Shown one piece after another: positions 18,464 to 60,403 of a stretch of DNA of 64,000 bases. Position numbers and translations under genes: made by a program. Under the pieces are notes generated by a model. The model was given only the letters and a program-made list of their open reading frames with translations. It made no database searches and was not told the DNA's origin. Position 1 is the first letter of the stretch. Each line of letters opens with the position of its first letter. Source of the DNA: Pleurocapsa minor HA4230-MV1 (GTDB lineage: Bacteria; Cyanobacteriota; Cyanobacteriia; Cyanobacteriales; Xenococcaceae); NCBI GenBank assembly GCA_019359095.1, contig JAHHHZ010000036.1:496001-560000 (forward strand). The letters run 5' to 3'.

Positions 18464-18528
18464 GTAAGGGCGATTCCGTAGGGCGATTCGCCCTAAAGGA
18501 CTAGCTTCGCGTCGCGAATCGCCCCTAC
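18464..18528. repeat. Nested palindromic repeat in intergenic gap
   Basis: An outer inverted repeat (GTAGGGCGATTCGCC on the left, GCGAATCGCCCCTAC on the right) encloses an inner CTAAAGGACTAGCTTCGCGT unit at its apex. The same nested arrangement, almost base for base, occurs in frame in the PKS gene at 32354-32405. Confidence 0.85.
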
Positions 18529-31031: not shown

Positions 31032-34000
31032 ACAGTTCAGAAACCCCAGAATCACAAGAATCATTAGAAGCAATCGCAATTGTCGGTATGGCAGGACGTT
31101 TTCCTGGTGCCAGCAATTTAGCAGAATTTTGGCACAATTTAGCCACTGGAATTGAATCAGTATCCTTTTTTAACGACGAGGAATTGACTCAATCGGGAAT
31201 CGATCCGAGCCTACTGAAAAATCCTCACTACGTCAAAGCTAGTGCTGTTTTAGAGGATATAGATTTATTCGATGCTCCCTTTTTTGACTTTAATCCGAAA
31301 GAAGCTGAAATTACCGATCCGCAACACCGCCTATTTTTAGAATGCGCCTGGGAGGCACTAGAAAATGCTGGGTACGATCCCCAAAGGTATCAAGGTAAAA
31401 CGGGAGTTTACGGCGGAGCTAGTCTTAATAATTATTATGCCTTCAATGCCAATCGCGATCGCCTGGGTTCAGCTCAATCCTATCAAACCCTGATCGGCAA
31501 CGATAAAGACTTTCTCACTACTCGCGTTTCCTATAAATTAAATCTAACAGGGCCGAGTATTACCGTACAAACAGCCTGTTCGACATCCCTAGTCGCCACT
31601 GTACTCGCTTGCCAAAGTTTATTAAATTATCAATGCGATTTGGCTTTAGCTGGTGGAGTTTCCCTTCGCGTACCCCAAAAAGCTGGATATTTACACGAAT
31701 CAGGAGGGACTTTATCCCCTGATGGTCACTGTCGCGCTTTTGATGCTCAAGCAGGAGGCATGATTATTGGTAACGGTGTCGGAATTGTTGTTCTCAAAAG
31801 ATTATCAGAAGCGATCGCCGATGGCGACTATATTCATGCGGTGATTAAAGGTGCAGCGATTAATAATGATGGTGCGGGAAAAGTCGGCTATACTGCCCCC
31901 AGTGTCGATGGTCAAGCAGAGGTAATCGCCGAAGCCATGATGCTAGCTGGAGTAGAACCAGAAACTATCGACTATATCCAAGCTCACGGTACTGGTACAA
32001 CTTTAGGCGATCCGATTGAAATTGCAGCACTGTCTCAGGTTTTTCGTGCCAACACCACTAAAGCAGGTTTTTGTGCGATCAGTTCAGTAAAAACTAATAT
32101 TGGTCATTTAGATGCTGCTGCTGGAATTGCTGGGCTAATTCAAACGGTTTTAGCTCTCAAGCATAAGTCGATTCCACCTAGTCTAAATTTTGAGCAGCCA
32201 AATCCTCAAATTGATTTTGTCAATAGTCCTTTTTACGTTAATACTAAACTGACGGAATGGGAACCAGCAGGACATCCTAGACGCGCAGGGGTCAGTTCAT
32301 TAGGTATTGGTGGGACGAATGCTCATGTTGTTCTTGAAGAAGCCCCAGATCTCGTAGGGGTGATTCGCCCTAAAGGACTAGCTGCGCGTCGCGAATCGCC
32401 CCTACGGGAATTATTGGTTATTTCGGCGAAAACTGAATCCGCGTTAGAGACAGCGACGGACAATTTAGTAGAACATTTAAATAAACATCCCGAATTGAAT
32501 TTAGCTGATGTGGCGTATACCTTACAGGTGGGGCGCAAAGAATTTACTTATCGTCGCATGGTGGTAGGAAAAGATGTTGAAGATGTGGCGATCGCTCTGC
32601 AAAATCGAGAACCTCAAAGGGTTTTGACTCATTGTACCCAGCTAAATAATCCCTCAATTGTCTTTATGTTTCCTGGGCAGGGTTCTCAGTATGTCAACAT
32701 GGGTACGGAATTATATGAAACTGAGCCTGTTTTTCGTGAGTGGATCGATCGCTGTGCGGAATTATTAGAACCTGAATTGGGGTTGGATTTGCGATCGCTA
32801 ATTTATCCCATCGTAGGGGCGAACGGCCGTTCGCCCCTACAGGAATCGCCCTTACAACAAACTGAAATAGCACAACCAGCTATCTTTACTATCGAATATG
32901 CTTTAGCCCAATTATGGATGTCTTGGGGAATAAAACCACAAGCTGCGATCGGTCATAGTATTGGAGAATACGTAGCTGCAACCATTGCTGGTGTGATGTC
33001 TTTAGAAGATGCTTTGTGTTTAGTAGCGCGACGGGGTAAGTTAATTCAACAAATGCCGACAGGTTCAATGCTGGCGGTGTCTTTATCAGAGACAACGGTA
33101 AGGGCGAACGGCGGTTCGCCCCTACAAAAGGATGGATTATCTTTAGCTGCTGTTAATGCTCCTAATTTATGCGTCATTTCAGGTAGTGATGAGGCAATAA
33201 CTAAAATAAATAAAGAATTGACTGAAAAAGGTATTGAATGCCGTCATCTTCATACTTCCCATGCTTTCCATTCTCCCATGATGGATGATGCGATCGCCCC
33301 TTTTACCCAAGAAATTGCCAAAGTTAAATTAAATCCACCTCAAATGCCCTTTATTTCCAACGTTACAGGCACTTGGATAACAGACGAACAAGCAACAAAT
33401 CCCCATTATTGGGCAAAACATATGAGGCAAACAGTTCGTTTTGCTGCGGGAGTTGACGAACTACTACAAGAACAAGAAAATATTTTGCTAGAAGTCGGTG
33501 CTGGCAGAACTTTATCTACTTTTGTTAAACGTAATTCTGCTCAAGCAGCAGGGCAAATAGTATTGTCGTCGTCACGTCATCCTAAAGAAACAGTTGACGA
33601 TCGCACTTTTATCCTCAATATGCTGGGTAGACTGTGGCTAGCAGGAGTAGCCATTGATTGGGGTGATTTTAATGCTCACCAAAAACGTTATCGAGTACCT
33701 CTACCAACTTATCCTTTTGAACGTCAACGTTATTGGATCGATCCTATCGATCCCCCCTTGAAAGCTTTTAAAGGGGGGTTTGGTAAAAAAGACAATATTG
33801 CTGATTGGTTTTATGTTCCTGCTTGGAAAGCCTTACCTCTGATTCAAAACAGTAAGATAACTAACGATCGCTATTTAGTTTTTGTCGATCAGTCGGCAAT
33901 TAGCGATCGCCTAATCGAAAAGTTAAAACAAGATGGACAAAATGCGATCGCCGTATATATTGGAGATAATTTCAGCCAGGATCGTTATAGCTACACCATC

Positions 34001-37035: not shown

Positions 37036-40000
37036 ATGAGTAATATAGCTAAAAGAATTGCTGCACTATCTCCAGCGCAAAGGAAACTTTTGGAGTTGCG
37101 GTTAAAACAAAAACAAATAAACTTAGGAACAAAAAGTTCAATTTCTCAAAGAAAAGCATCAGATACTTTACCATTATCGCTAATGCAAGAAAAGTTGTGG
37201 TTTGGACATCAATTACAACCAGACTTACCTTTATATAATGAATTAAATTTATTTAAGCTTGTAGGTAATCTCGATCTTGTTGCTATAGAAAAAAGTATTA
37301 ACAAAATTATTCAGCGTCATGAAATCTTACGGACTACTATTAAAACTATTAATGAGCAAGTAACTCAAATTGTTGCTCCAGAATTAAGCATATCTGTACC
37401 CATTATAGATTTGAAACAAGATTCAGAAGCTGAAATTCAAAAAATAATTAATAACTATTCTCGGCAACCCTTTAATTTAGAAAAATTACCATTACTCAGA
37501 AGTATTATTATTTCTCTGTCAGAACAAGAACATCTGATGCTGGTTGTTATGCATCATATTATTTCTGATGGTTGGTCTTGGGATATATTTTGTCGGGAAT
37601 TAGCAACATTTTATCAAGCTTTAGTTAATAATCAAACTACGACTTTACCAGAACTACCAATTCAATATGGAGATTTTGCTCTTTGGCATCACCAATTTAT
37701 TCAAGACAAAATTACACCACAGCTAAATTACTGGAAACAGCAACTAAAAAATATACCACCAATTTTAGAATTACCGACAGATTATCCTCGTCCTGCTAAA
37801 CAAAGTTTTCGAGGTGGTCGAGAAACATTTATTATTCCTAATAAACTTACTAAAAGTCTAAAAGAATTAAGCAAACAAGAAAATGTAACAACTTTTATGT
37901 TGTTGTTGGCTGCATTTAAGACTTTACTTTATCGTTATAGCCAAGAGACAGATATTGTAGTTGCTACTCCAGTTGCCAATCGCGATCGCACTGAGATCGA
38001 GAATTTAATTGGCTGTTTTATTAACACAATTGTTTTAAGAACTAATCTAGATGGCGAGCCGAGTTTTTCCGAATTATTACAACGGGTAAAAGCAACAACT
38101 TTAGCAGCATATAATCACTCAGATTTGCCCTTTGAAGAGTTAGTTAAAGAATTAAATATAGAGCGATCGCCATCTACTAATCCTTTATTTCAGGTAATGT
38201 TTATTTATCAAGAAGCACCACTATTAAGTTTAACCTTACCCGATTTAGAAATAACTCCTTTACCTGTAGATAATGGGATTAGTAAATTTGATTTGACACT
38301 GTATATCGAAGATACTCAAGCAGAATTAATTGGATTTTTAGAATATAGTAGCGATTTATTTCGTGAGGATACGATTCAAAGGATGTTGGCAAATTTTCAG
38401 ACTTTATTAACCGAAATTGTCGCTAATCCTGATACTAATCTCGATCGCTTACCGTTGTTAACAGCATCAGAAAGAAACCAGCTGTTAGTTGAATGGAATA
38501 ATACTCAAAAAGATTACCAATTAGATCTATGTCTGCATCAGTTATTTGAAGAACAAGTAACTAAGACACCCGATGCAATAGCAGTAGTCTTTGAAGATAA
38601 ACATCTTACCTATGGCGAACTCGATCATCAAGCAAATCTGTTGGCTGGTTACTTGCAACAGTTAGGAGTAGGCAAAGATGTTTTAGTCGGTATTTATTTA
38701 GAACGATCGCTCGTGGTAGTTGCCCTTTTGGCTGTCCTCAAAACAGGCGGTGCATACGTACCTCTCGATCCTACTTATCCTCTAGAGCGGATCGACTTTA
38801 TGGTAGAAGATGCGAAACTGGAGATAATACTTACCCAACAAAAATTACGGGGACATTTAGCTACAGATCGCCTAAAAGCCATCGAACTAGATACAGACTG
38901 GGAAACTATCGCCCAACACAACCTAACTCCAGCCGAGTCCAAATTCCAACCAGAATCATTAGCTTATGTAATCTACACTTCAGGTTCGACAGGAAAACCG
39001 AAAGGAGTACAAATCGGTCATGTTCAGGTGGTTAACTTCTTAACTTCCATGAGTTGTCAACCAGGATGCGATCGACAAGACATACTTTTAGCCGTTACCT
39101 CCATATCCTTTGATATCGCCGTACTAGAAATTTTTCTCCCCCTAATAGTCGGTGCCAAAGTGATTTTAGTTAGTCGGGAAGTAGCTTTAGACGGTCAAAA
39201 ACTGCTATCGGCATTAAATCGATATAACCCTACAATCATGCAAGCCACACCAGCTACCTGGAAGTTACTCTTAGAAGCAAGATGGCAAGGTAGCGATCGC
39301 CTTAAAATACTTTGTGGTGGGGAAGCCTTAAGGAAAAACTTAGCGCAACAACTACTTGCTAAAGCGGCATCTTTATGGAATATGTATGGGCCGACAGAAA
39401 CTACTATTTGGTCGGCGATTGAACCCGTACAACCAAATTTAACCGACAACTCTATTCCCATTGGTCGTCCTATTGCCAACACACAATTTTACATAGTCAA
39501 CGATCTCCTCCAACCTTTACCCATTGGCGTACCAGGAGAACTGCATATTGCTGGTATGGGTGTTGCTCAAGGCTACTTAAATCGTCCCGAATTAACCGCA
39601 GCAAAATTTATTCCAATCCTCCCTCAATCCCCCCTTAGTAAGGGGAGGCAGCGCGTTGGGCGGGTTTCCCGACTTGAAGCGAATGCCGTGGGTAGGGGGG
39701 ATCGCCTCTATAAAACGGGAGACAAAGCCCGATACCTAGCGGATGGCAAAATTGAGTATTTAGGCAGAATCGATCACCAAGTCAAAATTAGAGGTTTTCG
39801 GATCGAGATCGGCGAAATTGAATCAGTTTTAGCTCAACATCATGCTGTAGGTGAAGTGGTCGTTATCCCCCAGGAGGATGACTTTCAGCCTAAATCCTTA
39901 ACAGCTTATATCGTGTTTGGTTCAAAAACCATACCTACTGTTAGGGAACTTCGTTGTTTTCTGCGCCAACAGTTGCCAGAATATATGATTCCCAATGCCT

Positions 40001-42938: not shown

Positions 42939-45900
42939 ATGGAAAGTTTAACTATTACGGGATTTGAAATCTCTCCGCAACAAAAAAATCTTTGGTTATC
43001 ATGTTTAGCAAAAGAAAGACAAGTTTATCGAGTTACAGGGACAATTTTAATTGAAGGTAATTTAGAGCAAATAATTTTAGAAAAAGCGATTGAGAAAGTT
43101 ATTCAAAATAATGAAATCTTAAGGACTGGTTTTCAAGCGATCGCGGGTTTAACTGTTCCCGTTCAAATCATTTGTAATCGAGATAATTTTGACTTAAAGT
43201 ATTATGACCTGATTAATTATGAGATAACAGATCGGCAAGATAAACTTGAAACAATAATTTTTGAACTCAACCAAACTGAATTCGATTTAGAACAGGGTAT
43301 TGTTTTTTATGCCAGTTTAATTAAATTAGAGCGAGAAAAAAATATACTAGCGATCGCGATTTCTGCGCTTTGTGCAGATGCAGTATCTTTTCACAATTTA
43401 GTCCAAGAAATTAGTCAAGCGTATCAAAATTATTTAGCAGCGAAAGAAATAGATCATGAGTCTTTACAATATGCCGATTTAGCTGCTTGGCAAAATGAAT
43501 TATTAGCAGCACCAGAAGCTGAAGTTGGTCAACAATATTGGCAAGCTAAAAATTTATCTGACTTGGTTATTAATAAACTGCCGAGAGAAAAACAAGTTGA
43601 TGGTCAACTAGAATTTATTCCCAGATTTATTGAGCTTAATCTTAATCTTAATTTAGTTAACGACATCAAGCAATTAGCTGAAAAATATGATACTTCTGTT
43701 GCTACTCTATTAATGACTTGTTGGCAGATATTATTATGGCGGTTAAGCGAAGATAAACAGATTACAATTGCTACTTGTTTTGACAATAGAAATTATCAAG
43801 AATTAGAGCGAGTTGTTGGATTATTAGCTAAATATATTCCGCTCAATATTAAATTAGAAGAAGACATAACCTTCTCTCAAGTATTAGATATAGTAGCTCA
43901 AGAGATTGAAGAAATTAAACAATGGCAAGAATATTTTAGTGGAACACCTAATCATTTATCTTTGCCTTTTACTTTTGAGTTTAATTCTCAAATAAATAAA
44001 TATCAGCTTAATTATTTAACCTTTACGATTCAAAACTTATCAGCCTGCATCGATCGCTTTAAAGTAAAACTTGCTTGTTACTCTTATGCTGAGTCTCTCT
44101 CAATTCAATTACATTACGATGCCAGTTTATTCAATCAAGAAGATATTCAATGTTTAGGTTGGGAATTTAAAACTTTATTAGAAAGTGTACTAGATAATCC
44201 CAAAACTGCGATTGATAAATTAAATATTCTCAGTCCTCAAGAAAGAGAACAACTATTAATTAAATTTAATCAAACCGAGCCTCTGATTCCTCCTCATCAA
44301 TGCTTACATCATTGGTTTGAAGCCCAGGTAAACAAAACACCAAATGCGATCGCAGTTATTTTTGAAGATGAACAATTAACCTATCAAGAATTAAATAACC
44401 AAGCCGATCGAATAGCTAATCATTTAAGATCTTTAGGCGTTAAACCAGAAACCATTATTGCCCTTTGTGTCGAACGTTCTTTAGCTATAGTAACTGGAAT
44501 TCTGGGCATTCTTAAAGCAGGTGCTGCTTATTTACCTCTAGAACCTAATTTACCTTCCGAAGCATTAAAATTTAGATTGCAAGATGCTCAAGTATCACTA
44601 GTATTAACCCAAAAACACCTACAAGAAAAAATCGAATTAGATGTAGCTACCACTCAAAATAAAATACCAATAATCTCTCTCGATCAAGATCTTCAATCTA
44701 CCCCTAAACCTTCAAACCTCTATCCTCCCAAAGCCAACAACCTCGCCTATGTTATTTATACCTCTGGTTCGACAGGAAAACCCAAAGGAGTTGCGATCGA
44801 ACACCGACAAATAGTTAATTATCTCAGTGGTGTTTTAGCTAAATTAAACATACCAGAAGCTGCTAGTTTTGCTACAGTTTCTACCTTCGCTGCTGACTTG
44901 GGTAATACTTCTATTTTTGGTGCTTTGTGTACTGGTGGCTGTTTGCACATTGTTGCCGAGTCCAAGACTAGCGATCCTCTTGCTTTAGCCGATTATTTTA
45001 ATCAGCATCAAATTGACTGTCTCAAAATTGTTCCTTCGCACCTATCTGCTTTACTAACATCCGCCAATGCCGAAAAACTTTTACCCCGTCAACGCTTAAT
45101 TTTGGGTGGTGAAGCCTCAAGCTGGGAATTGGTTGACAAGGTACATAAACTAGCCCCAGATTGTCAAATCTTTAATCATTATGGCCCAACGGAAACTACT
45201 GTCGGGGTATTAATTCATCAAATCGATCCAATTAAGGCAAACAGTCGTCTAAGTTGGAGGGCAAACAGCCGTTTGCCCCTACTGGGTAATCCTTTACCAA
45301 ATACACAAATTTATATTCTCGATCGACATCAACAACCTATGCCGATTGGTGTCCCTGGTGAAATTTATATTGGTGGTAGTAATGTTGCCAGAGGATATAT
45401 CAATCAACCTGAATTAACCGCTGAAAAATTTATTTCGATCCCCCCTACCCACGGCAGGCGCTTCAAGTCGGGAAACCCGCCCAACGCGCTGCCTCCCCTT
45501 AGTAAGGGGGGATTGAGGGGGGATCGCCTCTACAAAACAGGAGATAAAGCCCAATATCTACAGAACGGTAAGATTGAATTTTTAGGCCGCATCGACAATC
45601 AAATTAAACTACACGGTTATCGTATCGAACTAGAAGAAATAGAAACAGTAGTGCGTCAACATCCTCAAGTACGAGATGCAGTCGTAATCGTAAAAGAAAA
45701 TTTGAGTCATAAATATCTGGTCGCGTATTTTGTTTCTGAATCAGAAATAAGTCAGGAATTACCTATTTTTTTAAGTAATAAACTACCTCAATATATGTTG
45801 CCTTCCCATTTCATCAAACTAAAGGCATTACCACTAACATCTAATGGGAAGATCGATCGCAACAGTTTACCATCACCAGAGACAATTAATTCACAATCAT

Positions 45901-47594
45901 CAGCGTTTGTTGCCCCTTTAAATCCAGTAGAAACGGCCTTGGCAAAAATCTGGGCAGAACTTTTAGGTCAAGAAAAAGTTGGTATTTACGACAATTTTTT
46001 TGAATTGGGTGGGGATTCAATTATTAGTATTCAAGCTATTGCTAAAGCTAATCAAATCGGTTTGCGTTTAACTCCTAAGCAAATTTTTGAACATCAAACT
46101 ATTGCTCAATTAGCTCAGGTTGTTCAAGTTAATCACAGTCTGGCAGAACAAGGTTTAATTAAAGGTTTAGTGCCTTTAACTCCAATTCAACATAGCTTTT
46201 TCGAGCAAAATCTACCTGAACCCCATCACTGGAATCAATCTATTTTATTAGAATTAAAACAGAAGATTGAACCAAAACAGTTAGAAGAAGTAATTAAACA
46301 TTTATTACAACATCATGATGTATTGCGATTGCGCAGCGTGGGCTTCGCCCAATCGCATTTTAATCAACAAGCTGAAGTATGGCAAAGTGAAATTACTGAA
46401 TCATTGCCAGAAATATCATTAAATATCATAGATTTCTCTGATCTTGCTGAAGATAAACAAAAAACTGCGATCGCTAAAAAAGCAACCCAAATACAATCCA
46501 GCTTGAATTTATCAGCAGGCAAACTAATAGAAATAGGATTATTCAATTTAGGTAAGAATCAACCAAAACGCTTATTAATTGTTATTCATCATTTAATTAT
46601 TGATGGTGTTTCTTGGCGCATTTTATTAGAGGACTTACAAACTGCTTTAACACAAATAAATCAAGGTAAAGTAATACAATTACCAGCCAAAACAACTTCT
46701 TTTAAACAATGGGCTGAAGGTTTACCAGAATATGCACAAACAGCCAAAGTTAAGGCTGAATTAGATTACTGGTGTTGTGAGTCAAGACAAAAAATTAAGC
46801 CTTTACCAGTGGATAATGCAGATGGTATCAATACAGAATCTTTCGCCCGTACTGTATCCGTATCTCTCAGCGCAAGAGAAACTCAAACCCTATTACAAAA
46901 ATTACCCGCAGCTTATCATACTCAAGTCAATGATATCTTGCTGGCTGCTTTGGCAAAAGCTTTTACTCAATGGACGGGCGAATTTCAACTATTAATTAAT
47001 TTAGAAGGACATGGACGAGAAGATATTTTTGCTGAGGTAAATTTATCGCGGACTATAGGCTGGTTTACTACTATTTTTCCAGTACTTTTGGACATCAAAA
47101 AAGCTAATTCAAATGATGAAGTTATCAAAACAATTAAAGAACAATTGAGTCGAATACCCAATCGCGGGATCGGTTATGGAGTTCTTCGTTATCTCAGCCA
47201 AGATCGAGCAATATCTCAAGCTTTAATAACTATGCCTCAAGCAGAAATTTGTTTTAATTATTTAGGACAATTCGATCGTACATTAGCCAATTCTGATTGG
47301 TTTAAATTAGCTTCAGAATCAGATGGTATAAACCGTAGCTTATTAGGTAAGCGTCGTTATTTATTTAATATTAATAGCTATATTCTTGACAATAAATTGA
47401 AACTAGATTGGATTTATAGTTCTCAAATTCATCGAGAAGAAACCGTCTTAAGTCTAGCCGAATCATATATCGAAACCTTAAAAGATTTTATGCACCAGAA
47501 ATCCTCCAAAAGAACAGAATTTACCTCATCAGACTTTCCCCAAGCCAATTTAAATCAACAACAATTAGACCAATTTTTAGCAACTTTGGATTAA
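42939..47594 (+). CDS. NRPS interface(C-like)-A(Asp)-PCP-E
   Basis: A 1551-residue synthetase. Residues 1-430 have condensation-domain folding marks but the HHxxxDG motif reads S-A-L-C-A-D-A (142-148), so the catalytic His is lost. This fits the 'interface' domains that recruit siderophore beta-hydroxylases. A domain about 450-980; specificity residues DLTKIGHVGK are the aspartate code. PCP Ser1027 in LGGDS, the variant that precedes epimerases. E domain about 1072-1520 (HHLIIDGVSW at 1217-1226). It should supply D-configured, beta-hydroxylated Asp, with bond formation by the C domain at the end of the Gly synthetase. Repeat inserts lie near residues 765-781, 836-858 and 1130-1140. Confidence 0.92.
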   Translation: MESLTITGFEISPQQKNLWLSCLAKERQVYRVTGTILIEGNLEQIILEKAIEKVIQNNEILRTGFQAIAGLTVPVQIICNRDNFDLKYYDLINYEITDRQDKLETIIFELNQTEFDLEQGIVFYASLIKLEREKNILAIAISALCADAVSFHNLVQEISQAYQNYLAAKEIDHESLQYADLAAWQNELLAAPEAEVGQQYWQAKNLSDLVINKLPREKQVDGQLEFIPRFIELNLNLNLVNDIKQLAEKYDTSVATLLMTCWQILLWRLSEDKQITIATCFDNRNYQELERVVGLLAKYIPLNIKLEEDITFSQVLDIVAQEIEEIKQWQEYFSGTPNHLSLPFTFEFNSQINKYQLNYLTFTIQNLSACIDRFKVKLACYSYAESLSIQLHYDASLFNQEDIQCLGWEFKTLLESVLDNPKTAIDKLNILSPQEREQLLIKFNQTEPLIPPHQCLHHWFEAQVNKTPNAIAVIFEDEQLTYQELNNQADRIANHLRSLGVKPETIIALCVERSLAIVTGILGILKAGAAYLPLEPNLPSEALKFRLQDAQVSLVLTQKHLQEKIELDVATTQNKIPIISLDQDLQSTPKPSNLYPPKANNLAYVIYTSGSTGKPKGVAIEHRQIVNYLSGVLAKLNIPEAASFATVSTFAADLGNTSIFGALCTGGCLHIVAESKTSDPLALADYFNQHQIDCLKIVPSHLSALLTSANAEKLLPRQRLILGGEASSWELVDKVHKLAPDCQIFNHYGPTETTVGVLIHQIDPIKANSRLSWRANSRLPLLGNPLPNTQIYILDRHQQPMPIGVPGEIYIGGSNVARGYINQPELTAEKFISIPPTHGRRFKSGNPPNALPPLSKGGLRGDRLYKTGDKAQYLQNGKIEFLGRIDNQIKLHGYRIELEEIETVVRQHPQVRDAVVIVKENLSHKYLVAYFVSESEISQELPIFLSNKLPQYMLPSHFIKLKALPLTSNGKIDRNSLPSPETINSQSSAFVAPLNPVETALAKIWAELLGQEKVGIYDNFFELGGDSIISIQAIAKANQIGLRLTPKQIFEHQTIAQLAQVVQVNHSLAEQGLIKGLVPLTPIQHSFFEQNLPEPHHWNQSILLELKQKIEPKQLEEVIKHLLQHHDVLRLRSVGFAQSHFNQQAEVWQSEITESLPEISLNIIDFSDLAEDKQKTAIAKKATQIQSSLNLSAGKLIEIGLFNLGKNQPKRLLIVIHHLIIDGVSWRILLEDLQTALTQINQGKVIQLPAKTTSFKQWAEGLPEYAQTAKVKAELDYWCCESRQKIKPLPVDNADGINTESFARTVSVSLSARETQTLLQKLPAAYHTQVNDILLAALAKAFTQWTGEFQLLINLEGHGREDIFAEVNLSRTIGWFTTIFPVLLDIKKANSNDEVIKTIKEQLSRIPNRGIGYGVLRYLSQDRAISQALITMPQAEICFNYLGQFDRTLANSDWFKLASESDGINRSLLGKRRYLFNINSYILDNKLKLDWIYSSQIHREETVLSLAESYIETLKDFMHQKSSKRTEFTSSDFPQANLNQQQLDQFLATLD
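45233..45284. repeat. Near-palindrome in frame in A(Asp)
   Basis: GGGCAAACAGCCGTTTGCCC at 45259-45278 is a near-perfect palindrome followed by CCTACT; an eroded half (GGCAAACAGTCG) precedes it. It encodes 'KANSRLSWRANSRLPLLG' before 'NPLPNTQIYI'. Confidence 0.82.
45436..45526. repeat. Composite palindromic repeat with 45-base insert, in frame in A(Asp)
   Basis: Identical flanks to the empty site at 30196-30241 (CGATCCCCCCTACC and CCCCTTA(G)TAAGGGGGG), separated by a 45-base unit at 45450-45494. The insert adds exactly 15 residues (HGRRFKSGNPPNALP) before A7. Confidence 0.93.
46325..46356. repeat. HIP1-associated repeat in frame in E domain
   Basis: GCGCAGCGTGGGCTTCGCCC flanked by GCGAT and AATCGC. 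It encodes 'LRSVGFAQSH' after 'HHDVLRL'. The same repeat is at the equivalent place in the second E domain (54499-54530). Confidence 0.85.
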
Positions 47595-50983: not shown

Positions 50984-53900
50984 ATGAGTTTAGAAAATAC
51001 CAGAAATATGAATACAATAGATCTACAAGATGACTTTTCTGCCGAAAAACTAGAATTATTAGCATTTTTGCTAGAAGAAGAAGGAATAGAAGTATCTGCC
51101 ACAGAAACTATTACTCCTCGTAAAACTAACGATAATTTATCTCTTTCTTATGCCCAACAACGTCTGTGGTTTCTGCAACAGCTAGAACCAGATAATCCTT
51201 TTTATAATATTCCTTCTGCTTTGGGTTTGCGGGGTTGTTTAAATGTACCTATCTTAGAAAGTTGTTTTAATCAAATTATTCAACGCCATGAAATTTTACG
51301 CACGAAATTCACTAGCATTGATGGACAAGCAACGCAGATAATTACTCCAGAATTAAATATCACCTTACCAGTTATCGATTTAAGTAACCTGCCAGCTAAG
51401 GAAAGAGAAACAGAGGCAAGAAGATTAATTAATCTTGAGGCACAAACCCCGTTTAATTTAGAAATACCGCCTTTACTACGAACTTCTTTACTTCGTCTCG
51501 ATGAGGCAAAGTATATCTTACTCTTTACCATGCACCATATTGTCAGTGATGGTTGGTCAACAGATATCTTGGTGGGTGAAGTAGTTACGCTGTATGAAAG
51601 TTTAATTAATCAGCAGCCTTCAACATTACCCGAACTTACTATCCAGTATGCCGATTATGCAACTTGGCAACGACAATGGTTACAAGGAGAAGTATTAAAC
51701 CAACAACTCAATTTTTGGCAACAGCAACTAGCCGATATTCCTTCAATTTTACCTTTACCTCTAGATAAACCTCGACCTCATATTCAATCTTATCGAGGTA
51801 CAAAACAAACTTTTGTAATTTCTCCCGAATTAACGAACGCCCTGAAAAACCTTAGCCAGCAAGAAAATTGTACTTTATTTATGATTTTGTTGGCAGCATT
51901 TAAAGTGCTGTTATATCGCTACACTGCTACCGAAGATATAGTAGTCGGTTCGCCTATAGCCAATCGCAACCGTACAGAAGTCGAAGCTTTAATTGGCTTT
52001 TTCGTGAATACTTTGGTGTTGCGGACAAATTTAGCCGATCATCCTAGTTTTTTAGCAGTATTAGCCAGAGTCAAAGATTGCACTCTATCAGCTTATGCCA
52101 ATCAAGATGTACCCTTCGATTTAATTATAGAATCAGTAAAAAGCGATCGCAGTCTGAGTCATACGCCTTTATTCCAAGTCATGTTTGTGCTGCAAAATGC
52201 CCCGCAGTCAAATATGGAACTACCAGACTTAACCTGGGAATCTTTAGAAATAGAAGCTACAACTACCAAGTTCGACCTAAGCCTGTTAATTGAAGAAACT
52301 GCCACAGAATTAAAGGCTTGTTGGGAATATAGCACCGATTTATTTAATCCTGACACCATCAGCCGTTTGAGTGAACATTTTCAGACGTTGCTATCTGGTA
52401 TTGTCGCTAACCCAGAACAATCTATTACTCAACTACCTTTGTTGACAGCTAAAGAACAACAATTACTGGTAGAGTGGAATGCTACTCAAGCTGAGTATCC
52501 CTTAGATAAATCTATTCATCAACTGTTTGCCGAACAAGTAGTCAAGTCACCCGATGCTGTGGCTGTAGTATTTGAAGATTCTCAGTTAACTTATCGAGAA
52601 TTAAACAGTCAAGCTAACCAATTAGCCCACTATTTACAACAAAATGGCGTAAAACCAGGGATTATCGTCGGTATTTGCTGCGATCGCTCTTTAGCAATGG
52701 TTGTCTCTTTGCTAGCCGTTCTCAAAGCAGGTGGCGCATATTTACCCCTAGATCCTAGCTATCCTCCAGAACGTTTGCAGTTTATGGTGGAAGATAGCAA
52801 TTTAGCCGTCTTATTAACTCAAACCAAGCTATTAGATTTATTCTCTAATTCTCCAGCCAAGATTATTTGTCTCGATCGAGAAAAAGACAAAATCGCTCAA
52901 AATTCTGCTGTTAATCCAGTTAATAGCGTTACTCCTGAGAATTTAGCCTACGTCATTTATACATCAGGTTCGACGGGGAAACCCAAAGGTGTCATGATTC
53001 CTCATCGCGCCCTTACTAACCATATGCTATGGATGCAAACAGAATTACCCTTAAATTCATCAGATAAAGTTTTACAAAAAACTCCCTTTAGTTTCGATGC
53101 TTCTGTCTGGGAATTTTATGCACCTTTATTAGTAGGTGGGAGATTAATTGTAGCCAAACCAGATGGACATCAAGATCCGAGTTATTTAACTGAGTTAATC
53201 ATTCAAGAACAGATTACTATTCTACAATTAGTCCCCTCTATGCTGCGAGTATTGTTAGAAGAAGAAATCGATAACTGTAAATCTTTACGCAGAGTATTTT
53301 GTGGCGGGGAAAATTTACCTGGGGAATTACAACAACGTTTTTATCGCCAATTTAAACACTGTGAATTATATAATCTCTATGGCCCTACTGAAGCTACTAT
53401 CGATACTACCTATTATTTATGTCCCCGACAAACAGAACCGATTAATTCTATTGGTAAACCCATTAGTAATGTTCAAGTTTATATCTTAGATGCTGATTTA
53501 CAACCAGTACCCATTGGCATTCCAGGAGAAATTTATATAGGTGGGGCAGGTTTAGCGCAAGGATATATTAATCAGCCTGAATTAACCGCCGAAAAATTTA
53601 TCCCCAATCCTTTGAAAAATCCTGTAAGGGCGAATGGCCATTCGCCCCTACAAAATCTGAAATTATACAAAACAGGAGACAAAGCCCGCTATCTCCCTAC
53701 CCTAAAGGGTAGCGCTTCGCATAACGGAAATATAGAATTTTTAGGCAGAATCGATCATCAAGTAAAACTGCGGGGTTTTCGGATTGAATTGGAGGAAATT
53801 GAAACCAAACTAGAACAACATCCCAAAGTTAAACAAGCTGTAGTTGAAGTTAAAGAAGATGATAATCGTCAGCGTTTAATTGCTTATCTGATCGGGGCAA

Positions 53901-55807
53901 ATAATATTTCACTGGCATCGAAGGAATTGCGTAGTTATTTACAAGATAGGCTGCCAGAATATATGATTCCTGGGGAATTTGTCTGTTTAGAATCTTTCCC
54001 CTTAACACCTAACGGCAAAATAGATCGCCACGCTTTACCGATACCAAAAATAACAAGCGATCGCGAATTAAGCGCAACTCCCCGTAATCAAATTGAATCT
54101 ACTCTAGTCAATATTTGGCAGGAGGTTCTACAAGTAGACAATATCGGCATTCACGATAATTTCTTTGAACTCGGTGGTGATTCTATTATGAGTCTGCAAG
54201 TCATTGCTAAAGCGAGAAGTGCAGGTATACAACTTACTCCGAAACAGATTTTTCAATATCAAACTATTGCCGATTTAGGGACAGTAGCCAATACAACTAA
54301 TACAACTACAACCCAATCAGCAGAACAAGTTTTAGCTACGGGTGTTATCCCTCTAACTCCGATTCAACAGCGATTTTTTGCCCAACAATTTACGGATTCT
54401 CATCATTGGAATCAATCAGTAATTTTAGAAGTAAATGATTGTAATCCCAAGTTATTAGAACAAGCCATACAACATCTCTGGGAACATCATGATGTATTGC
54501 GATCGCGCAGCGTGGGCTTCGCCCAATCGCATTTTGTAGAAAACAATTCTGGTTGGCAATGCGAGGTTTCAGTTATCAGTCATCAGTTATCAGTACCACA
54601 AGGGCATAACATCATCAGTTATCAGTTATCAAAACTATCTCAGGATCGGCAAAAACAAAAAATAAAAGCGATCGCATCTCAATTACAAGCTAGTTTTAAT
54701 TTAAGTCAAGGGCAATTAATCAAAATTGTTTGGTTCGATCTAGGTAAGCATCAATCTAGCCGATTGCTAATTATTGCTCATCATTTAATTATCGATGGGG
54801 TTTCTTGGCGAATTTTACTGGAAGATTTAGCCACTGCTTATCAACAATTAAGCCAAGGGGAAACGGTTAAACTACCAGCTAAGACTACTTCTTATAAGTA
54901 TTGGGCGGAACAATTGCAAACATACGCCCAGTCTGAAACGGCGATCGAAGAATTGGATTATTGGCTGAATTTATTACAGGTAACAGATCATAGAGATAAG
55001 TTGAAAATTCTACCTGTAGACTTTCCTCGCGGTGAAAATACCGTAGCAGCCGAAGTTACTTTATCGGTGAGTCTTACCCAAGAAGAGACACAAGCCCTGT
55101 TATCGGAAGTTCCATCGGCGTATCAGACTCAAATTAATGATGTTTTACTCACTGCCTTAGTGCAAGCTTTTCAAGAGTGGACGGGTAGTAATTCTTTGTT
55201 AATCGAACTAGAGGGACATGGTAGAGAGGATATCTTAGATAATATCGATTTGTCGCGTACAGTAGGCTGGTTTACGACTATATTTCCAGTTTTATTGGAT
55301 TTAGGCAATAATTCTCATCCAGGGGAAAGCTTGAAAACCATCAAAGAACAATTGCGTAGTATTCCTCAGCGAGGGATTAATTACGGTGTACTGCGCTATT
55401 TAAGCCATGACGCATCAATTAGAGAAAAGCTAGAAAACTTGCCCCAAGCAGCAGTTAGATTCAACTATTTAGGGCAAATAGACCAAATAACTAATAATTC
55501 ATCTTTATTTCAACCTGCAAACGAATCTACTGGAGATAATCAAAGCCTGAGAGGACATCGAGATTGCTCGATCGAAATTAATAGTGCGATCGCCAATGGT
55601 CAATTATTCCTAGATTGGACTTATAGCCAAGAATTATATCGAGAAACCACCATGCAACAACTAGCTGAAGGATTTATTGAGAAACTGCGATCGCTAATAT
55701 CCCATTGTCAATCTCCAAACTCTGGAGGCTATACCCCATCAGACTTTCTCCAAATGCAATTCGATGCAGCCGAACTAGATTTATTACTTTCCGAACTCGA
55801 TAGTTGA
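50984..55807 (+). CDS. NRPS C-A(Gln)-PCP-E
   Basis: A 1607-residue module with N-terminal helices (1-45), C domain 50-485 (MHHIVSDGWS, HH184-185; L-L type opening 'LSYAQQRLWFL'), A domain about 505-1015, PCP Ser1067 in LGGDS and E domain about 1118-1590 (AHHLIIDGVSW). Specificity residues DAWQFGLIDK equal the glutamine code known from tyrocidine and fengycin synthetases. It should add D-Gln. Repeat-derived peptides occur near residues 880-890 and 904-914 in the A domain and 1173-1183 and 1196-1217 in the E domain. Parts of the A domain are nearly identical to the preceding Ser module, pointing to duplication or gene conversion. Confidence 0.93.
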   Translation: MSLENTRNMNTIDLQDDFSAEKLELLAFLLEEEGIEVSATETITPRKTNDNLSLSYAQQRLWFLQQLEPDNPFYNIPSALGLRGCLNVPILESCFNQIIQRHEILRTKFTSIDGQATQIITPELNITLPVIDLSNLPAKERETEARRLINLEAQTPFNLEIPPLLRTSLLRLDEAKYILLFTMHHIVSDGWSTDILVGEVVTLYESLINQQPSTLPELTIQYADYATWQRQWLQGEVLNQQLNFWQQQLADIPSILPLPLDKPRPHIQSYRGTKQTFVISPELTNALKNLSQQENCTLFMILLAAFKVLLYRYTATEDIVVGSPIANRNRTEVEALIGFFVNTLVLRTNLADHPSFLAVLARVKDCTLSAYANQDVPFDLIIESVKSDRSLSHTPLFQVMFVLQNAPQSNMELPDLTWESLEIEATTTKFDLSLLIEETATELKACWEYSTDLFNPDTISRLSEHFQTLLSGIVANPEQSITQLPLLTAKEQQLLVEWNATQAEYPLDKSIHQLFAEQVVKSPDAVAVVFEDSQLTYRELNSQANQLAHYLQQNGVKPGIIVGICCDRSLAMVVSLLAVLKAGGAYLPLDPSYPPERLQFMVEDSNLAVLLTQTKLLDLFSNSPAKIICLDREKDKIAQNSAVNPVNSVTPENLAYVIYTSGSTGKPKGVMIPHRALTNHMLWMQTELPLNSSDKVLQKTPFSFDASVWEFYAPLLVGGRLIVAKPDGHQDPSYLTELIIQEQITILQLVPSMLRVLLEEEIDNCKSLRRVFCGGENLPGELQQRFYRQFKHCELYNLYGPTEATIDTTYYLCPRQTEPINSIGKPISNVQVYILDADLQPVPIGIPGEIYIGGAGLAQGYINQPELTAEKFIPNPLKNPVRANGHSPLQNLKLYKTGDKARYLPTLKGSASHNGNIEFLGRIDHQVKLRGFRIELEEIETKLEQHPKVKQAVVEVKEDDNRQRLIAYLIGANNISLASKELRSYLQDRLPEYMIPGEFVCLESFPLTPNGKIDRHALPIPKITSDRELSATPRNQIESTLVNIWQEVLQVDNIGIHDNFFELGGDSIMSLQVIAKARSAGIQLTPKQIFQYQTIADLGTVANTTNTTTTQSAEQVLATGVIPLTPIQQRFFAQQFTDSHHWNQSVILEVNDCNPKLLEQAIQHLWEHHDVLRSRSVGFAQSHFVENNSGWQCEVSVISHQLSVPQGHNIISYQLSKLSQDRQKQKIKAIASQLQASFNLSQGQLIKIVWFDLGKHQSSRLLIIAHHLIIDGVSWRILLEDLATAYQQLSQGETVKLPAKTTSYKYWAEQLQTYAQSETAIEELDYWLNLLQVTDHRDKLKILPVDFPRGENTVAAEVTLSVSLTQEETQALLSEVPSAYQTQINDVLLTALVQAFQEWTGSNSLLIELEGHGREDILDNIDLSRTVGWFTTIFPVLLDLGNNSHPGESLKTIKEQLRSIPQRGINYGVLRYLSHDASIREKLENLPQAAVRFNYLGQIDQITNNSSLFQPANESTGDNQSLRGHRDCSIEINSAIANGQLFLDWTYSQELYRETTMQQLAEGFIEKLRSLISHCQSPNSGGYTPSDFLQMQFDAAELDLLLSELDS
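53624..53651. repeat. 28-base palindrome in frame before A7 of A(Gln)
   Basis: Arms GTAAGGGCGAATGG and CCATTCGCCCCTAC, one mismatch. It encodes 'VRANGHSPLQ' before 'KLYKTGD'. Confidence 0.9.
53699..53725. repeat. CCTAAAGG/GCTTCGC repeat in frame after A7 of A(Gln)
   Basis: ACCCTAAAGGGTAGCGCTTC then GCATAAC. Adds 'TLKGSASH' after 'ARYLP', the same site as 30279-30359. Confidence 0.82.
54499..54530. repeat. HIP1-associated repeat in frame in second E domain
   Basis: GCGATCGCGCAGCGTGGGCT followed by TCGCCCAATCGC; encodes 'RSRSVGFAQSH'. Equivalent to 46325-46356. Confidence 0.85.
54570..54633. repeat. TTATCAG heptamers in frame in second E domain
   Basis: TTATCAG/TCATCAG units on both sides of a short ACCACAAGGGCATAAC segment. 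The tract encodes residues about 1197-1217, absent from the first E domain. The centre resembles the remnant of a GGGCATA-ended palindromic repeat. Confidence 0.7.
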
Positions 55808-55861: not shown

Positions 55862-58800
55862 ATGAACCAAAAAAATATTGAAAATATCTACCCGATGACA
55901 CCCATGCAGGAGGGCATACTGTTTCATACCCTGAATGCACCCCAAACGGGAATTTATGTAGTTCAAAGTGGCTATCAATTTAATCACCAAATTAATTTAT
56001 CTGCTTTTAAACAAGCTTGGCAACAAGTAATTAACCAGCATTCTGTTTTACGAACTTCTTTCCATTGGCAACAACATAAAGAACCATTCCAAGTAGTATA
56101 CAAACAAGTAGAACTACCTTGGTCAGAATATACGCTAGCAGACGAGGAAGAATTAGCAACTTGGTTAGAAAAGGATCGCCAAGCAGGTTTTAATCTCAAC
56201 CAACCACCTCTAATGCGCTTGAGTTTGATTCATTTAGACAACAATACGGATCAGTTTATCTGGAGTTGTCACCATTTAATTTTAGATGGTTGGTCTACAG
56301 CATTGGTATTAAAACAAATATTAGATAGTTATCAAGCAATTGTTAGAGATGAAATTTGCTCTTTAAAACCTACTCGCCCCTATGGAGACTATGTAGCTTG
56401 GTTACGACAACAGGATTTATCTCAAGCTAAGGCATATTGGCAAAGAACACTTAAAGGGTTTACTACACCTACTCCTCTTGTAATGGGGGAATGCCCTAAA
56501 GGACTCGCTTCGCGTCGGGGAGATAGGGAACTGGGGAAATGGGGAGAAGAATCACTAAAACTCTCTTTAGAAACTACGACTGCTTTAAAATCTTTAGCCA
56601 AAGAACATAGATTGACTGTAAATACTATTTTACAGGGTGCTTGGGCATTGCTGCTGAGTCGATATAGTGGCGAAGAAGATGTTGTGTTTGGTGCGACTTC
56701 TGCTGGTCGTCCGCCGAATTTGGTAGGATCTGAATCGATGGTGGGTTTATTTATCAATACTTTACCAGTTCGAGTTCAAGTAGCTGCTAATGAATCTTTA
56801 ATTCCTTGGTTACAAACACTGCAAAGCCAACAAATTGAAGCGCAGCAATATGAATATACTCCCTTGATCCAAGTACAACAATGGAGTGATGTAGCAAAAG
56901 ATTCACCACTGTTTGCCAGTATTTTAGTTTTTGAAAACTATCCTGTCGATACGGCGATCGCCGAATTTGGGATCGAAATGGAGATTGAAGAGACTCAATC
57001 GGTAGAATCGACAAGCTATCCCCTAACTATTTCCGCAGGCTTGAGGGATGAGTTATCTTTAGAAATTTTATACGATCGCAACTTTGATGCTGCTACTGTT
57101 CAGGGAATACTGAGACATTTAGCACATTTACTGGAACAGTTTATTACCGATCCTGAAGCTAATTTAGTAGACTTATCTATTTTAACAACTGCCGAAAAAC
57201 AGCAAATATTAATTGATTGGAATAACACCCAAGTTAATTATCAAGATAATCTCTGTATTCATCAATTATTTGAACAACAGGTAGCTAAAACCCCCGATGC
57301 TGTAGCAGTAATTTTTGAAGAAGAACAATTAACTTATCAAGAATTAGATCGACGCGCCGAAGAGTTAGCGGGTTATTTGCAAAATATCGGTGTAAAACCA
57401 GAAGTTATTGTTGGTATTTGTCTAGAACGTTCTCTAGAAACAATTATTGCTATTTTAGCTATTTTGAAAGCTGGTGGTGCATATCTGCCCCTAGATTCAG
57501 CTTATCCTCAACAACGCTTAGATTATATCCTTGAAGATGCCCAAATTTCTCTGATACTGACTCAGAATCATTTACAAGCCAAAATAAAATCTTGTCTAAC
57601 TGTTACTCAAAACAACATTCAAATAATTTGCCTCGATAGTAATCTTCCATCTATTTCTACATCCTTACAATCAGGGCGCAAGCCCTTCGGGTTCGACAGT
57701 TTGCTTATGTCGGTGAAACCGCCCACCGCAACTGTCTCACCTTGCGCCCCTACTTCCGATAATCTCGCCTATGTAATTTATACCTCTGGTTCAACAGGAA
57801 AACCCAAAGGAGTTGCGATCGCTCATTCCTCTCTCGTCAATTTTGCCCAAGCAGCAGTACAAGAATATGAAATTACCCAAAGCGATCGCATTTTACAATT
57901 CGCCTCGATTAGTTTTGATGCTTCAGTTGAAGAGATTTATCCCTGTTTAATTGCAGGAGGGACATTAGTTTTACGCAGTGAAGAGATGGGCTACTCTCCC
58001 TCATTGTTACTAGAAAAGTCTCGTGACTATGGCATGACTATTTTAGATTTACCGACAGCTTTTTGGCATTTACTCACGGCGGAATTAGAACAAAATCCTC
58101 AATTACAATTACCCGAATCAATTCGCTTAGTCATTATTGGTGGCGAAGTAGTCAATCCCGACAAAGTAGCAAGCTGGAATCGATTAGTAGGAACATCTTG
58201 TCAACTAATTAATACTTATGGCCCTACAGAAGCTACAGTTGTAGCTACAAGTTATAAAATTTCCCATCAGATCGATAACTTAGCTACCATCCCGATTGGT
58301 AAACCATTGCCCAATCTACAGACTTATATTTTAAATAAAAACCTACAGCCAGTTGCGATCGGCGTACCTGGAGAATTATATATCGGTGGTATTGGTGTCG
58401 CTAGAGGTTACTTAAATCGCCCCGAATTAACTAAAGAAAAATTTATCAACGTCGGGGCGTTTCACGTGGTCAAGGCGAACGGTGAGGCACTTGCGGTGGG
58501 CGGGTTTCCCGACATAAGCAAAGTGCCGAACCCGAAGGGCGGTTCGCCCCTACAGAATGGAAAATTATACAAAACAGGCGACAAAGCCCGCTATCTCTCG
58601 AACGGTAACATTGAATTCTTAGGACGCATCGATAATCAGGTTAAAATCAGGGGTTTTCGCGTTGAATTGGCAGAAATCGAAGCAATACTTAGTCAACATC
58701 CTACAGTTACACAAGTAGCAGTAGCTTTAAAACGGGATGCTAATAATGAAAGTAAATTAATTGCTTATTTAGTATTAAAAGAAAATACTACTGAACAAGT

Positions 58801-60403
58801 AGCTACTTTTAAGAATTTCCTACAACAACAACTACCTGAATATGCTATCCCCTCAGCATTTATCTTTTTAGATCGCTTACCTATGACGATTAATGGTAAA
58901 TGCGATCGCGATAATTTACCAACACCAGATTTAGTAGCTACAACTACAGCAAATTACATTGCGCCTCGTACTGCTAATGAGCAAAAAATGGCTGACATTT
59001 GGCAAGAGGTTTTAGGTGTACAGGTGGGAATTTATGATAATTTCTTCGATCTAGGGGGACATTCTCTATTAATAGTGCGTTTATTTGCCCGTATCCGTAA
59101 TGTATTTAAAATCGATTTACCTTTTCAGTTTTTGTTTGATGCACCTATTCTGATTAATTTTGTGGGAAAACTAGAAAGTTTCCAGACACAAGAAGAAACT
59201 GAGACACAAACTTTAGATTTAAAACAAGAAGCATTTCTAGATTGCACTATTTCTCTACAAAATTCCCAATTTCAATACCCCAAGGTAATTAATAATATTT
59301 TCCTAACGGGGGCAACTGGTTTTCTGGGCGCATTTTTGCTAGCCGAACTTTTACGACAAACTGAAGCGGATATTTATTGTTTAGTACGTGCCGATAATTT
59401 GGCAGAAGGTAAACAAAAGATCGAGCAATCTTTAGTTAATTATCTTCTCTGGCAAGATGATTTTATTGCCAGAATTATTCCCGTTTTAGGCGACTTATCT
59501 CAGCCATTTTTAGGACTTTCAGATGCAAAATTTCAATCTTTAGCAACAGCGATCGATCTTATTTATCACAATGGTGCTTGGGTACATCATGCTATGCCCT
59601 ATTCAACTCTCAAAGCAGCTAATGTTTTAGGTACTAAGGAAATCTTGCGCTTAGCTAGTACAGAAAAAATTAAACCCGTTCATTTTATTTCGACAATTAG
59701 TGTCTTTTCTGGAGTTAATAATTCTGGCAGTCAGGTAATTTCAGAAATAGCTAAAATTGATAATTTTGCTGCCCCAGAAGGCGGTTACGTTCAAAGTAAA
59801 TGGGTTGCCGATAAATTAGTTAATCTTGCTCGCGATCGCGGTTTACCTGTTATTATTTATCGCCCTGGGGGGATATCGGGAGATAGCACAACGGGAGTGT
59901 TTAATCCTCATGATTTCTTATACAGATTATTAATTGGTTGTATCGAATTGGGTGCTATTCCTCAAGGGGACTTTTTAGATAGTTTAATGCCTGTAGATTA
60001 TGTCAGTCAGGCGATTGTTAGTATTTCTCGGCAACCAGAATCTTTAGGTAAAGCTTTTCATTTAGTCAATCGCGATCGCTTAGATTTTAACATCCTCACT
60101 AATTTAATTCGTGCTTTTGGTTATGAATTACAAGAACTTAATCAGGATCGATGGCAAGCTAAATTGACAGCAATTGCCGAAAATCAGCTAGAACATCCTT
60201 TATATCCTTTGATTTCTCTATTATCTTCTGACAAGGATTCTGGGAATGCACCACCTTTACAATTCGATTGTCAGAATACACTGCAAGCTTTAGCCAAGAC
60301 TGGAATTTCTTGTCCAGCAATGGATGAGAAGTTACTGCGTACTTATTTGTATTATCTCAGTAAAAACGGCTTTTTAAAACCCATTCGACAACCTGCAATT
60401 TGA
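55862..60403 (+). CDS. NRPS C-A(basic residue)-PCP-thioester reductase (release module)
   Basis: A 1513-residue terminal module. C domain 1-440 opens 'IYPMTPMQEGILFHT' (D-residue-accepting type, following an E domain; HH137-138). A domain about 465-1020 with specificity residues DAEDIGTVVK; the acidic E/D pair suggests a basic side chain such as Lys or Orn, close to the Lys code I recall for BacB (DAESIGSVAK), but this is not certain. PCP Ser1068. Residues about 1143-1500 are an NAD(P)H-dependent reductase ('FLTGATGFLGAFLL', Y1309-x-x-x-K1313), which releases the chain as an aldehyde or alcohol. Repeat inserts lie near residues 207-226, 604-631 and 864-898. Confidence 0.92.
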   Translation: MNQKNIENIYPMTPMQEGILFHTLNAPQTGIYVVQSGYQFNHQINLSAFKQAWQQVINQHSVLRTSFHWQQHKEPFQVVYKQVELPWSEYTLADEEELATWLEKDRQAGFNLNQPPLMRLSLIHLDNNTDQFIWSCHHLILDGWSTALVLKQILDSYQAIVRDEICSLKPTRPYGDYVAWLRQQDLSQAKAYWQRTLKGFTTPTPLVMGECPKGLASRRGDRELGKWGEESLKLSLETTTALKSLAKEHRLTVNTILQGAWALLLSRYSGEEDVVFGATSAGRPPNLVGSESMVGLFINTLPVRVQVAANESLIPWLQTLQSQQIEAQQYEYTPLIQVQQWSDVAKDSPLFASILVFENYPVDTAIAEFGIEMEIEETQSVESTSYPLTISAGLRDELSLEILYDRNFDAATVQGILRHLAHLLEQFITDPEANLVDLSILTTAEKQQILIDWNNTQVNYQDNLCIHQLFEQQVAKTPDAVAVIFEEEQLTYQELDRRAEELAGYLQNIGVKPEVIVGICLERSLETIIAILAILKAGGAYLPLDSAYPQQRLDYILEDAQISLILTQNHLQAKIKSCLTVTQNNIQIICLDSNLPSISTSLQSGRKPFGFDSLLMSVKPPTATVSPCAPTSDNLAYVIYTSGSTGKPKGVAIAHSSLVNFAQAAVQEYEITQSDRILQFASISFDASVEEIYPCLIAGGTLVLRSEEMGYSPSLLLEKSRDYGMTILDLPTAFWHLLTAELEQNPQLQLPESIRLVIIGGEVVNPDKVASWNRLVGTSCQLINTYGPTEATVVATSYKISHQIDNLATIPIGKPLPNLQTYILNKNLQPVAIGVPGELYIGGIGVARGYLNRPELTKEKFINVGAFHVVKANGEALAVGGFPDISKVPNPKGGSPLQNGKLYKTGDKARYLSNGNIEFLGRIDNQVKIRGFRVELAEIEAILSQHPTVTQVAVALKRDANNESKLIAYLVLKENTTEQVATFKNFLQQQLPEYAIPSAFIFLDRLPMTINGKCDRDNLPTPDLVATTTANYIAPRTANEQKMADIWQEVLGVQVGIYDNFFDLGGHSLLIVRLFARIRNVFKIDLPFQFLFDAPILINFVGKLESFQTQEETETQTLDLKQEAFLDCTISLQNSQFQYPKVINNIFLTGATGFLGAFLLAELLRQTEADIYCLVRADNLAEGKQKIEQSLVNYLLWQDDFIARIIPVLGDLSQPFLGLSDAKFQSLATAIDLIYHNGAWVHHAMPYSTLKAANVLGTKEILRLASTEKIKPVHFISTISVFSGVNNSGSQVISEIAKIDNFAAPEGGYVQSKWVADKLVNLARDRGLPVIIYRPGGISGDSTTGVFNPHDFLYRLLIGCIELGAIPQGDFLDSLMPVDYVSQAIVSISRQPESLGKAFHLVNRDRLDFNILTNLIRAFGYELQELNQDRWQAKLTAIAENQLEHPLYPLISLLSSDKDSGNAPPLQFDCQNTLQALAKTGISCPAMDEKLLRTYLYYLSKNGFLKPIRQPAI
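56481..56549. repeat. GGGGA-rich tandem tract split by palindromic repeat, in frame in C domain
   Basis: AATGGGGGAATG, then CCTAAAGGACTCGCTTCGCG (56495-56514), then GGGGAGA, CTGGGGA, AATGGGG units. Adds about 20 residues to the C domain of the last module. Confidence 0.75.
57672..57752. repeat. Nested hairpin repeat (60-base inner unit) before A3
   Basis: Outer arms AGGGCGCAAG / CTTGCGCCCCTA enclose a 60-base unit (57682-57741) that is the reverse complement of 58481-58540 at 53 of 60 positions. It encodes about 27 residues upstream of 'LAYVIYTSGSTG'. Confidence 0.9.
58472..58553. repeat. Nested hairpin repeat (60-base inner unit) before A7
   Basis: Outer arms AAGGCGAAC / GGTTCGCCCCTA enclose the 60-base unit 58481-58540, with an outer stem (GGCACTT/AAGTGCC) and a central hairpin CGGG-TTT-CCCG. 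It encodes residues about 871-897. Confidence 0.9.

Follow-up and report, generated by a model that had tools for sequence, protein, structure and literature searches.

Within a 64,000-nt stretch of Pleurocapsa minor DNA (hereafter the window), two copies of a hairpin repeat lie inside one adenylation (A) domain and differ by changes that leave their stems paired. This raises the question of whether the hairpin has been maintained, as opposed to the peptide that it encodes, and whether this took place within the A domain itself. Both copies are found in the 1513-aa ORF at 55862-60403, an NRPS module by its Pfam matches (Condensation, AMP-binding, AMP-binding_C, PP-binding and NAD_binding_4), and both are open and in frame; the source genome comprises 5.64 Mb in 36 contigs. 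Copy 1 (57683-57739, plus strand; stem GACAGTT/AACTGTC, inner pair T-A) is located within the AMP-binding match, just upstream of the YVIYTSGSTG motif of the A domain, and is translated as PFGFDSLLMSVKPPTATVS. Copy 2 (58483-58539, minus strand and thus in the opposite orientation; stem GGCACTT/AAGTGCC, inner pair G-C) is located upstream of the YKTGD motif, between the AMP-binding and AMP-binding_C matches. When 57682-57741 is compared with the reverse complement of 58481-58540, 7 of the 60 positions differ (15, 18, 33, 34, 37, 51 and 54), and six of these form three compensated pairs, namely 15/54 (A-T versus G-C), 18/51 (G-C versus C-G) and 33/37 (T-A versus G-C), with position 34 in the loop. 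The original prediction is therefore accurate in its coordinates and in these differences, although the conserved unit is not 60 bases long but 57 nt, the length that fits best in 41 of 50 deduplicated copies. In sequence matches to solved A domains, local alignments stop at query 393 to about 427, the stretch of copy 2; those listed either stop before the copy-1 stretch or cross it with gaps. A predicted structure of the A domain (a 546-aa fragment from the window, single sequence) gave a mean pLDDT of 35 and a pTM of 0.24, and was set aside.

The unit usually starts with CCCTTCGGG and ends with TCA. The aligned 57-mers begin with CCC, CTC or TCC and end with TCA or TCT, the latter in 3 of 31 copies. 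In its fold, a mini-hairpin (CCC-TTC-GGG) precedes a long hairpin, which is built of 7 bp, a bulged T, another 2 bp, an internal loop of 6x6, a further 4 bp and a terminal loop of 3 nt. Among 131 covariance-model matches, 77 are 57 nt long, 24 are 55, 56 or 58 nt long, and 30 have other lengths. From 58 distinct 57-nt sequences, 6 were removed whose columns are displaced by a longer mini-hairpin loop. The remaining 52 were counted without a filter that prescribes part of the left arm as well as T at position 20; the bulge is T in 51 of them, and none has a fully paired 6x6 internal loop. A few loop sequences recur among the copies. It should also be noted that element positions 28 and 40, which oppose each other across the internal loop, covary as the non-standard T/C and C/T, with G/C, C/G, A/T and T/A in a few copies; a non-canonical contact between them is possible.

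Covariation was measured on an alignment built from the 50 deduplicated copies, in which the 38 copies of 57 nt with good consensus similarity yielded 31 distinct sequences; the other 12 were interrupted, nested or divergent, and were left out. RNAalifold, unaided, predicts for these 31 the same 16 pairs as were drawn by hand. In the 496 pair cells (31 copies x 16 pairs), both partners have changed in 60 (shuffled mean 21.7) and a single partner in 3, while 6 cells are broken. Standard pairs occupy 98.8% of the cells versus a shuffled mean of 87.3%, a value equalled in 0 of 500 shuffles, where the shuffles ignore the relatedness of the copies and the rows, being chosen partly by consensus similarity, favour intact stems. 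When the structure is slid by 1-3 columns, only 24-47% of the cells are paired. Further pair types do not exceed the shuffles (12 versus 12.9 in the 31-copy alignment). The wider set of 52 copies gives 790 Watson-Crick, 8 G-T, 14 A-C and 20 other cells in a total of 832; with fixed columns and the 6 shifted copies included, the 928 cells comprise 815 Watson-Crick, 10 G-T, 22 A-C and 81 other. Many combinations of stem pairs 13/54, 14/53 and 17/50 are found, and not just two alleles. Breaking the stems as often as keeping them was the outcome that would have spoken against a maintained hairpin; what we find is 60 + 3 pair-keeping cells versus 6 broken cells out of 496.

Hence, the proposal that the hairpin has been maintained holds for the fold of the family, on the strength of this covariation, but not for its maintenance inside this A domain. 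Stem GACAGTT/AACTGTC is present in 10, and stem GGCACTT/AAGTGCC in 5, of the 52 distinct 57-nt sequences, window copies 1 and 2 included, respectively. Since both stems recur elsewhere, the divergence of the two copies most likely predates their entry into this A domain; judging from these sequences, they probably arrived as already different family members, with compensatory differences older than the insertions. Nor does the stronger proposal stand that the fold was kept instead of the peptide, as the reading frame is kept too in both window copies. Furthermore, a sub-lineage in genome G006 (3 distinct sequences at 5 places) has four of its seven outer-stem pairs broken and has multiplied, so that multiplication does not strictly require an intact stem. 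Its members (L132, L134, L142, L146 and L147) carry the arm GTGCCTT opposite AACTGCC/AACTGCT and sit in larger nested arrays.

The 57-nt DNA hairpin is spread through many cyanobacterial genomes. Blast of the unit finds copies in 18 of 60 kin genomes, and a covariance-model search across the class, with filters that lose weak matches, finds it in 24 of 291 sampled genomes, the source genome being included in both counts. An exact pattern taken from the unit's left half is carried by 45 stretches in the species collection, and the named genomes that carry it are Pleurocapsa, Hyellaceae, Xenococcaceae, Xenococcus, Myxosarcina and an unplaced Pleurocapsales strain; nine plasmid records (Tolypothrix, Calothrix, Nostoc and others) also have a match. 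The length of the match varies in the more distant genomes. The source genome has 5 covariance-model places, 3 of them of 57 nt: the two window copies and C36:359923-359979, which lies in frame in a further megasynthase-type frame (L003), within its AMP-binding match.

As 57 is a multiple of three, the unit can sit inside genes with the reading frame unbroken. At least 80 open codons are found on each side at 24 of 130 distinct places, a count lowered by stretches that end close to the element, and 13 of these 24 places hold the 57-nt unit. These 13 copies are distributed over four phases (four each in three of them, one in the fourth), with 8 oriented along the coding strand and 5 against it. 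For ten of them the frame contains a Pfam domain: seven of these frames are of megasynthase type (both window copies, L003, L019, L058, L137 and L149), and the other three are a DEAD helicase (L017), an OprB porin (L094) and a GIY-YIG/TrwB-type frame (L014). The frames at L086, L031 and L178 have no Pfam match at E 1e-5. The other 106 of the 130 places lie outside long frames, as expected if most gene insertions are lost. Selection for coding as the main cause of the length of 57 was considered and rejected: this length is also usual outside long frames, and the matches in distant genomes vary.

Where the unit inserts is in part recognizable from its flanks. Once joined, the flanks form a palindrome at 18 of 86 distinct sites (shuffled mean 3.4, maximum 7) and a tandem heptamer at 17 (shuffled mean 2.8, maximum 6), while 13 further sites, at least one of them doubtful, are loops of related hairpins by a crude pattern. 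By the scores used, 38 of the 86 match none of these three target classes; both window copies are among them (scores 5 and 8 of 12), though their outer arms are visible by eye. Copy 1 fills an outer palindrome GGGCGCAAG...CTTGCGCCC at 57674-57749, located by pattern search, and copy 2 fills GGCGAACGG...CGGTTCGCC at about 58474-58548, or GGCGAACGG...CGGTTCGCCCCTAC at 58474-58553, with arms placed by eye (score 8/12, threshold 9). The outer palindrome often has GTAG at its start and CTAC at its end. The pattern for filled palindromes proved too loose (27 matches, control 29) and served for coordinates only. That for unfilled ones, GGGCGA-N6-10-TCGCCC, is found at 42 places in the source genome (control 0), 23 of which are perfectly self-complementary when counted by eye. 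Insertion leaves no detectable target duplication at the 69 non-heptamer sites: flanking direct repeats of at least 4 bases occur at none, and those of 3 bases at 4 (shuffled mean 3.5); at the 17 heptamer sites a 7-base duplication could be present. The base 3' of the unit is C in 83 of 86 sites, and the unit's own first base is repeated there in 81, which leaves the exact cut uncertain by 1-2 bases. Another filler of ~24 nt (CCCTAAAGGATTAGCT..GCGTCGC type) is held by related palindromes, for example at C36:186656-186699 and C11:112058-112101 and also at window 18481-18524; this kind of palindrome hence seems to be a socket for more than one repeat.

Empty and partly filled versions of the same sites are also found. 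Helicase-type genes (DEAD domain) have an empty site in G004 and in one copy of the source genome (contig 7), the palindrome alone (+18 nt) in G006, whose frame has one TAG, and in another copy of the source genome (contig 4), and the palindrome plus the 57-mer (+75 nt) in G003. At the copy-2 stretch, A domains of the window also differ in this respect: that at 50.2 kb has neither, that at 53.6 kb has only the palindrome (GGGCGAATGGCCATTCGCCC, 20 nt, unfilled, at 53628-53647 in the preceding A domain), and that at 58.5 kb has both, with length steps of 30 and 57 nt. Copy 2 corresponds to an exact 57-nt gap versus the paralogous A domain at 53.6 kb, and the first window site to a 69-nt gap versus L199. 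Both inserts are missing from the related A domains L199 (source genome) and L196 (G008, a genome in which blast of the unit found no copy). The empty/filled differences at the helicase and A-domain sites are all multiples of three. Two more unfilled 20-nt palindromes, at 33102-33121 (nearly perfect) and 32817-32836, lie inside the ORF at 31028-35758.

We consider it probable that the 57-mer is a non-autonomous hairpin element of the REP/SDR type, and that its fold is kept for spreading, although neither a transposition event nor, at the 19 Y1-transposase loci examined, an autonomous partner was found. The hairpin would form in single-stranded DNA, or possibly RNA, where the mobilizing machinery would recognize it. 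If most new copies descend from copies with intact stems, the arms would co-vary across the family. The unit is often added to existing repeats: to the 20-nt palindrome, to tandem heptamers or to loops of related hairpins. Insertions into genes would survive in tolerant loops or linkers, where the length of the unit keeps the frame; large modular NRPS/PKS proteins would offer many such places, and this A domain has taken up two units, in opposite orientations. More tentatively, the element could have a mobilization route of its own, targeting palindromes and repeat loops that are already there, without target duplication. Its constant length of nineteen codons would let it pass through genes and stack up in frame (18 + 57 nt) in modular enzymes, and its intermediates may be single-stranded DNA or RNA; we regard this as possible, but doubtful.

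Covariation alone cannot separate selection from template-switch repair, and neutral quasipalindrome correction must therefore be weighed, whereby one arm templates the other during replication and compensated changes arise in one step without selection. The small number of one-sided intermediates (3 cells versus 60 changed on both sides) is indeed what a one-step process predicts. However, such correction should also erase neighbouring mismatches, yet the bulged T persists in 51 of 52 distinct copies, none of which has an internal loop that is paired throughout; together with the recurrence of a few loop sequences, this makes neutral correction quite unlikely as an explanation. That the hairpin acts in the host mRNA (stability, pausing or regulation) and is kept for that purpose is very improbable, although the fold was predicted with RNA parameters and copies within genes should be co-transcribed. 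Within long frames the 57-nt copies run both ways (8 of 13 with the coding strand, 5 of 13 against it), the host genes differ, related genes lack the element, and Rfam gives 0 matches in the window at the gathering score. In addition, wobble pairs are not favoured, as G-T cells are not commoner than A-C cells (8 versus 14 of 832), and there is thus no pointer to RNA. The opposite view, in which it is the peptide that matters and the 19-residue inserts give the enzyme a useful loop, could draw on the in-frame read-through of both window copies and on three A domains of the cluster with related inserts at the same stretch. It is scarcely credible given that four phases on both strands are used, so that the peptides differ, that the length of 57 is also usual outside long frames, and that related A domains do without the insert.

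A closer relative of our preferred reading is that the element is a REP/REPIN proper, mobilized by a REP-associated tyrosine transposase (RAYT) of the host. The outer palindrome is often GTAG...CTAC, and the source genome has 8 Y1-type matches, including some weak-scoring ones with longer frames, which we take to be RAYT-like. Nevertheless, the 57-mer itself bears no GTAG tag, and no element match was found by covariance model at E up to 1 at the 19 Y1-transposase loci examined, out of more than 100 Y1 matches listed for 13 genomes. Nor does the presence of the element follow the Y1 matches within the genus: these occur in all 13 of its genomes, with 18 in G008, which has no copy, and 6 in G005, which has at least 14 copies (copy numbers are minimum values, as about 15 candidates were scored in each genome). 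Compensatory hairpin changes are reported for REPINs as well (PMC3116915), and in sum we hold mobilization by a RAYT to be unlikely.

As a small mobile hairpin, the element is of a kind already known. Small dispersed repeats (SDRs), said to have been described by Elhai and colleagues in 2008 in Nostoc punctiforme, are reportedly 21-27 nt long, share a common hairpin with compensatory mutations, and occur embedded in tandem heptamers, mini-transposons, mini-palindromes and their own copies. In hairpin and behaviour the 57-mer agrees with these SDRs: it is a hairpin with compensatory changes, and it sits in heptamers, palindromes and related hairpins at 17, 18 and about 13 of 86 sites, respectively. 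It differs from them in its two hairpins, in being in frame within a gene here, and in its length, which is outside the range reported for SDRs; only the 24-nt units at 46328 and 54502 fall within that range. These two units also follow the rule, as given in PMC4390886, that SDR5 inserts between the third and fourth base of HIP1. The 57-mer further resembles REPINs, as a short dispersed hairpin with compensatory changes that is sometimes intragenic; REPs inside genes are reported (PMC3733652), as are GTAG families from cyanobacteria and some nested in palindromes (PMC3116915, PMC3733652). Unlike these, it lacks a GTAG (or CGTC) end tag, the GTAG belonging to the outer palindrome; it is not a doublet of one REP, and no linked RAYT was found at the loci examined. 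Rickettsia palindromic elements are longer palindromic repeats that lie in frame in many ORFs. The 57-mer is likewise in frame in unrelated ORFs; host and length differ. In-frame insertion of the Rickettsia elements is also mentioned in PMC3733652. As with MITEs, the 57-mer is small, non-autonomous and dispersed, but there is no detectable target duplication around it and its two ends (CCC..., ...TCA) do not form inverted repeats. Among the literature matches listed, no title or abstract opening points to this 57-nt unit.

What this family adds is the set of layered states at one gene (empty, palindrome, palindrome plus hairpin), a sharp-ended unit of 57 nt, and stems that are interchangeable; with these in hand, the recognized feature, the strand and the enzyme become testable. 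The inserts also suggest that natural NRPS/PKS proteins tolerate about 19-25 additional residues in defined stretches. For annotation, they serve as a warning that such segments of NRPS/PKS proteins are repeat DNA and not domains.

The 57-mer has shorter cousins in the window. The core that it was predicted to share with a 45-base unit at 39646 is indeed there, since GGGCGGGTTTCCCG has 3 exact matches (39658, 45469 and 58498; shuffled mean 0.14 allowing 2 mismatches), and the 57-mer covariance model weakly matches 45449-45496 (26 bits, E 9e-4) and 39654-39678 (23.6 bits, E 4e-3). By these sequence matches, the link between the two families appears real but weak. One cousin of about 45 nt (45449-45496, plus strand, ends by eye) occupies the same stretch in another A domain, where a CCCCTTAGTAAGGGG repeat encloses it; a second (39646-39690, minus strand, about 45 nt with ends as originally proposed) does so in yet another A domain, in the opposite orientation. 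The two 24-nt SDR5-like repeats mentioned above each split a HIP1 octamer (GCG/ATCGC) and add 8 residues in frame, one at 46328-46351 (plus strand) in the ORF at 42939-47594, the other at 54502-54525 (plus strand) at the corresponding position of the ORF at 50984-55807. At 34089-34211, tandem repeats of the CACCCAGT/CACCCCAT type together with a GCGAAGC hairpin are in frame in the ORF at 31028-35758 and encode the low-complexity peptide TSPHHPVTPSPSHPISPSP. Finally, a different repeat family (TTTAGGGC.. type) is found in A domains in frame right after YKTGD..ARYL, at 30332-30356 and in L199, with TASRPKGLAPNVASHEVS as an example.
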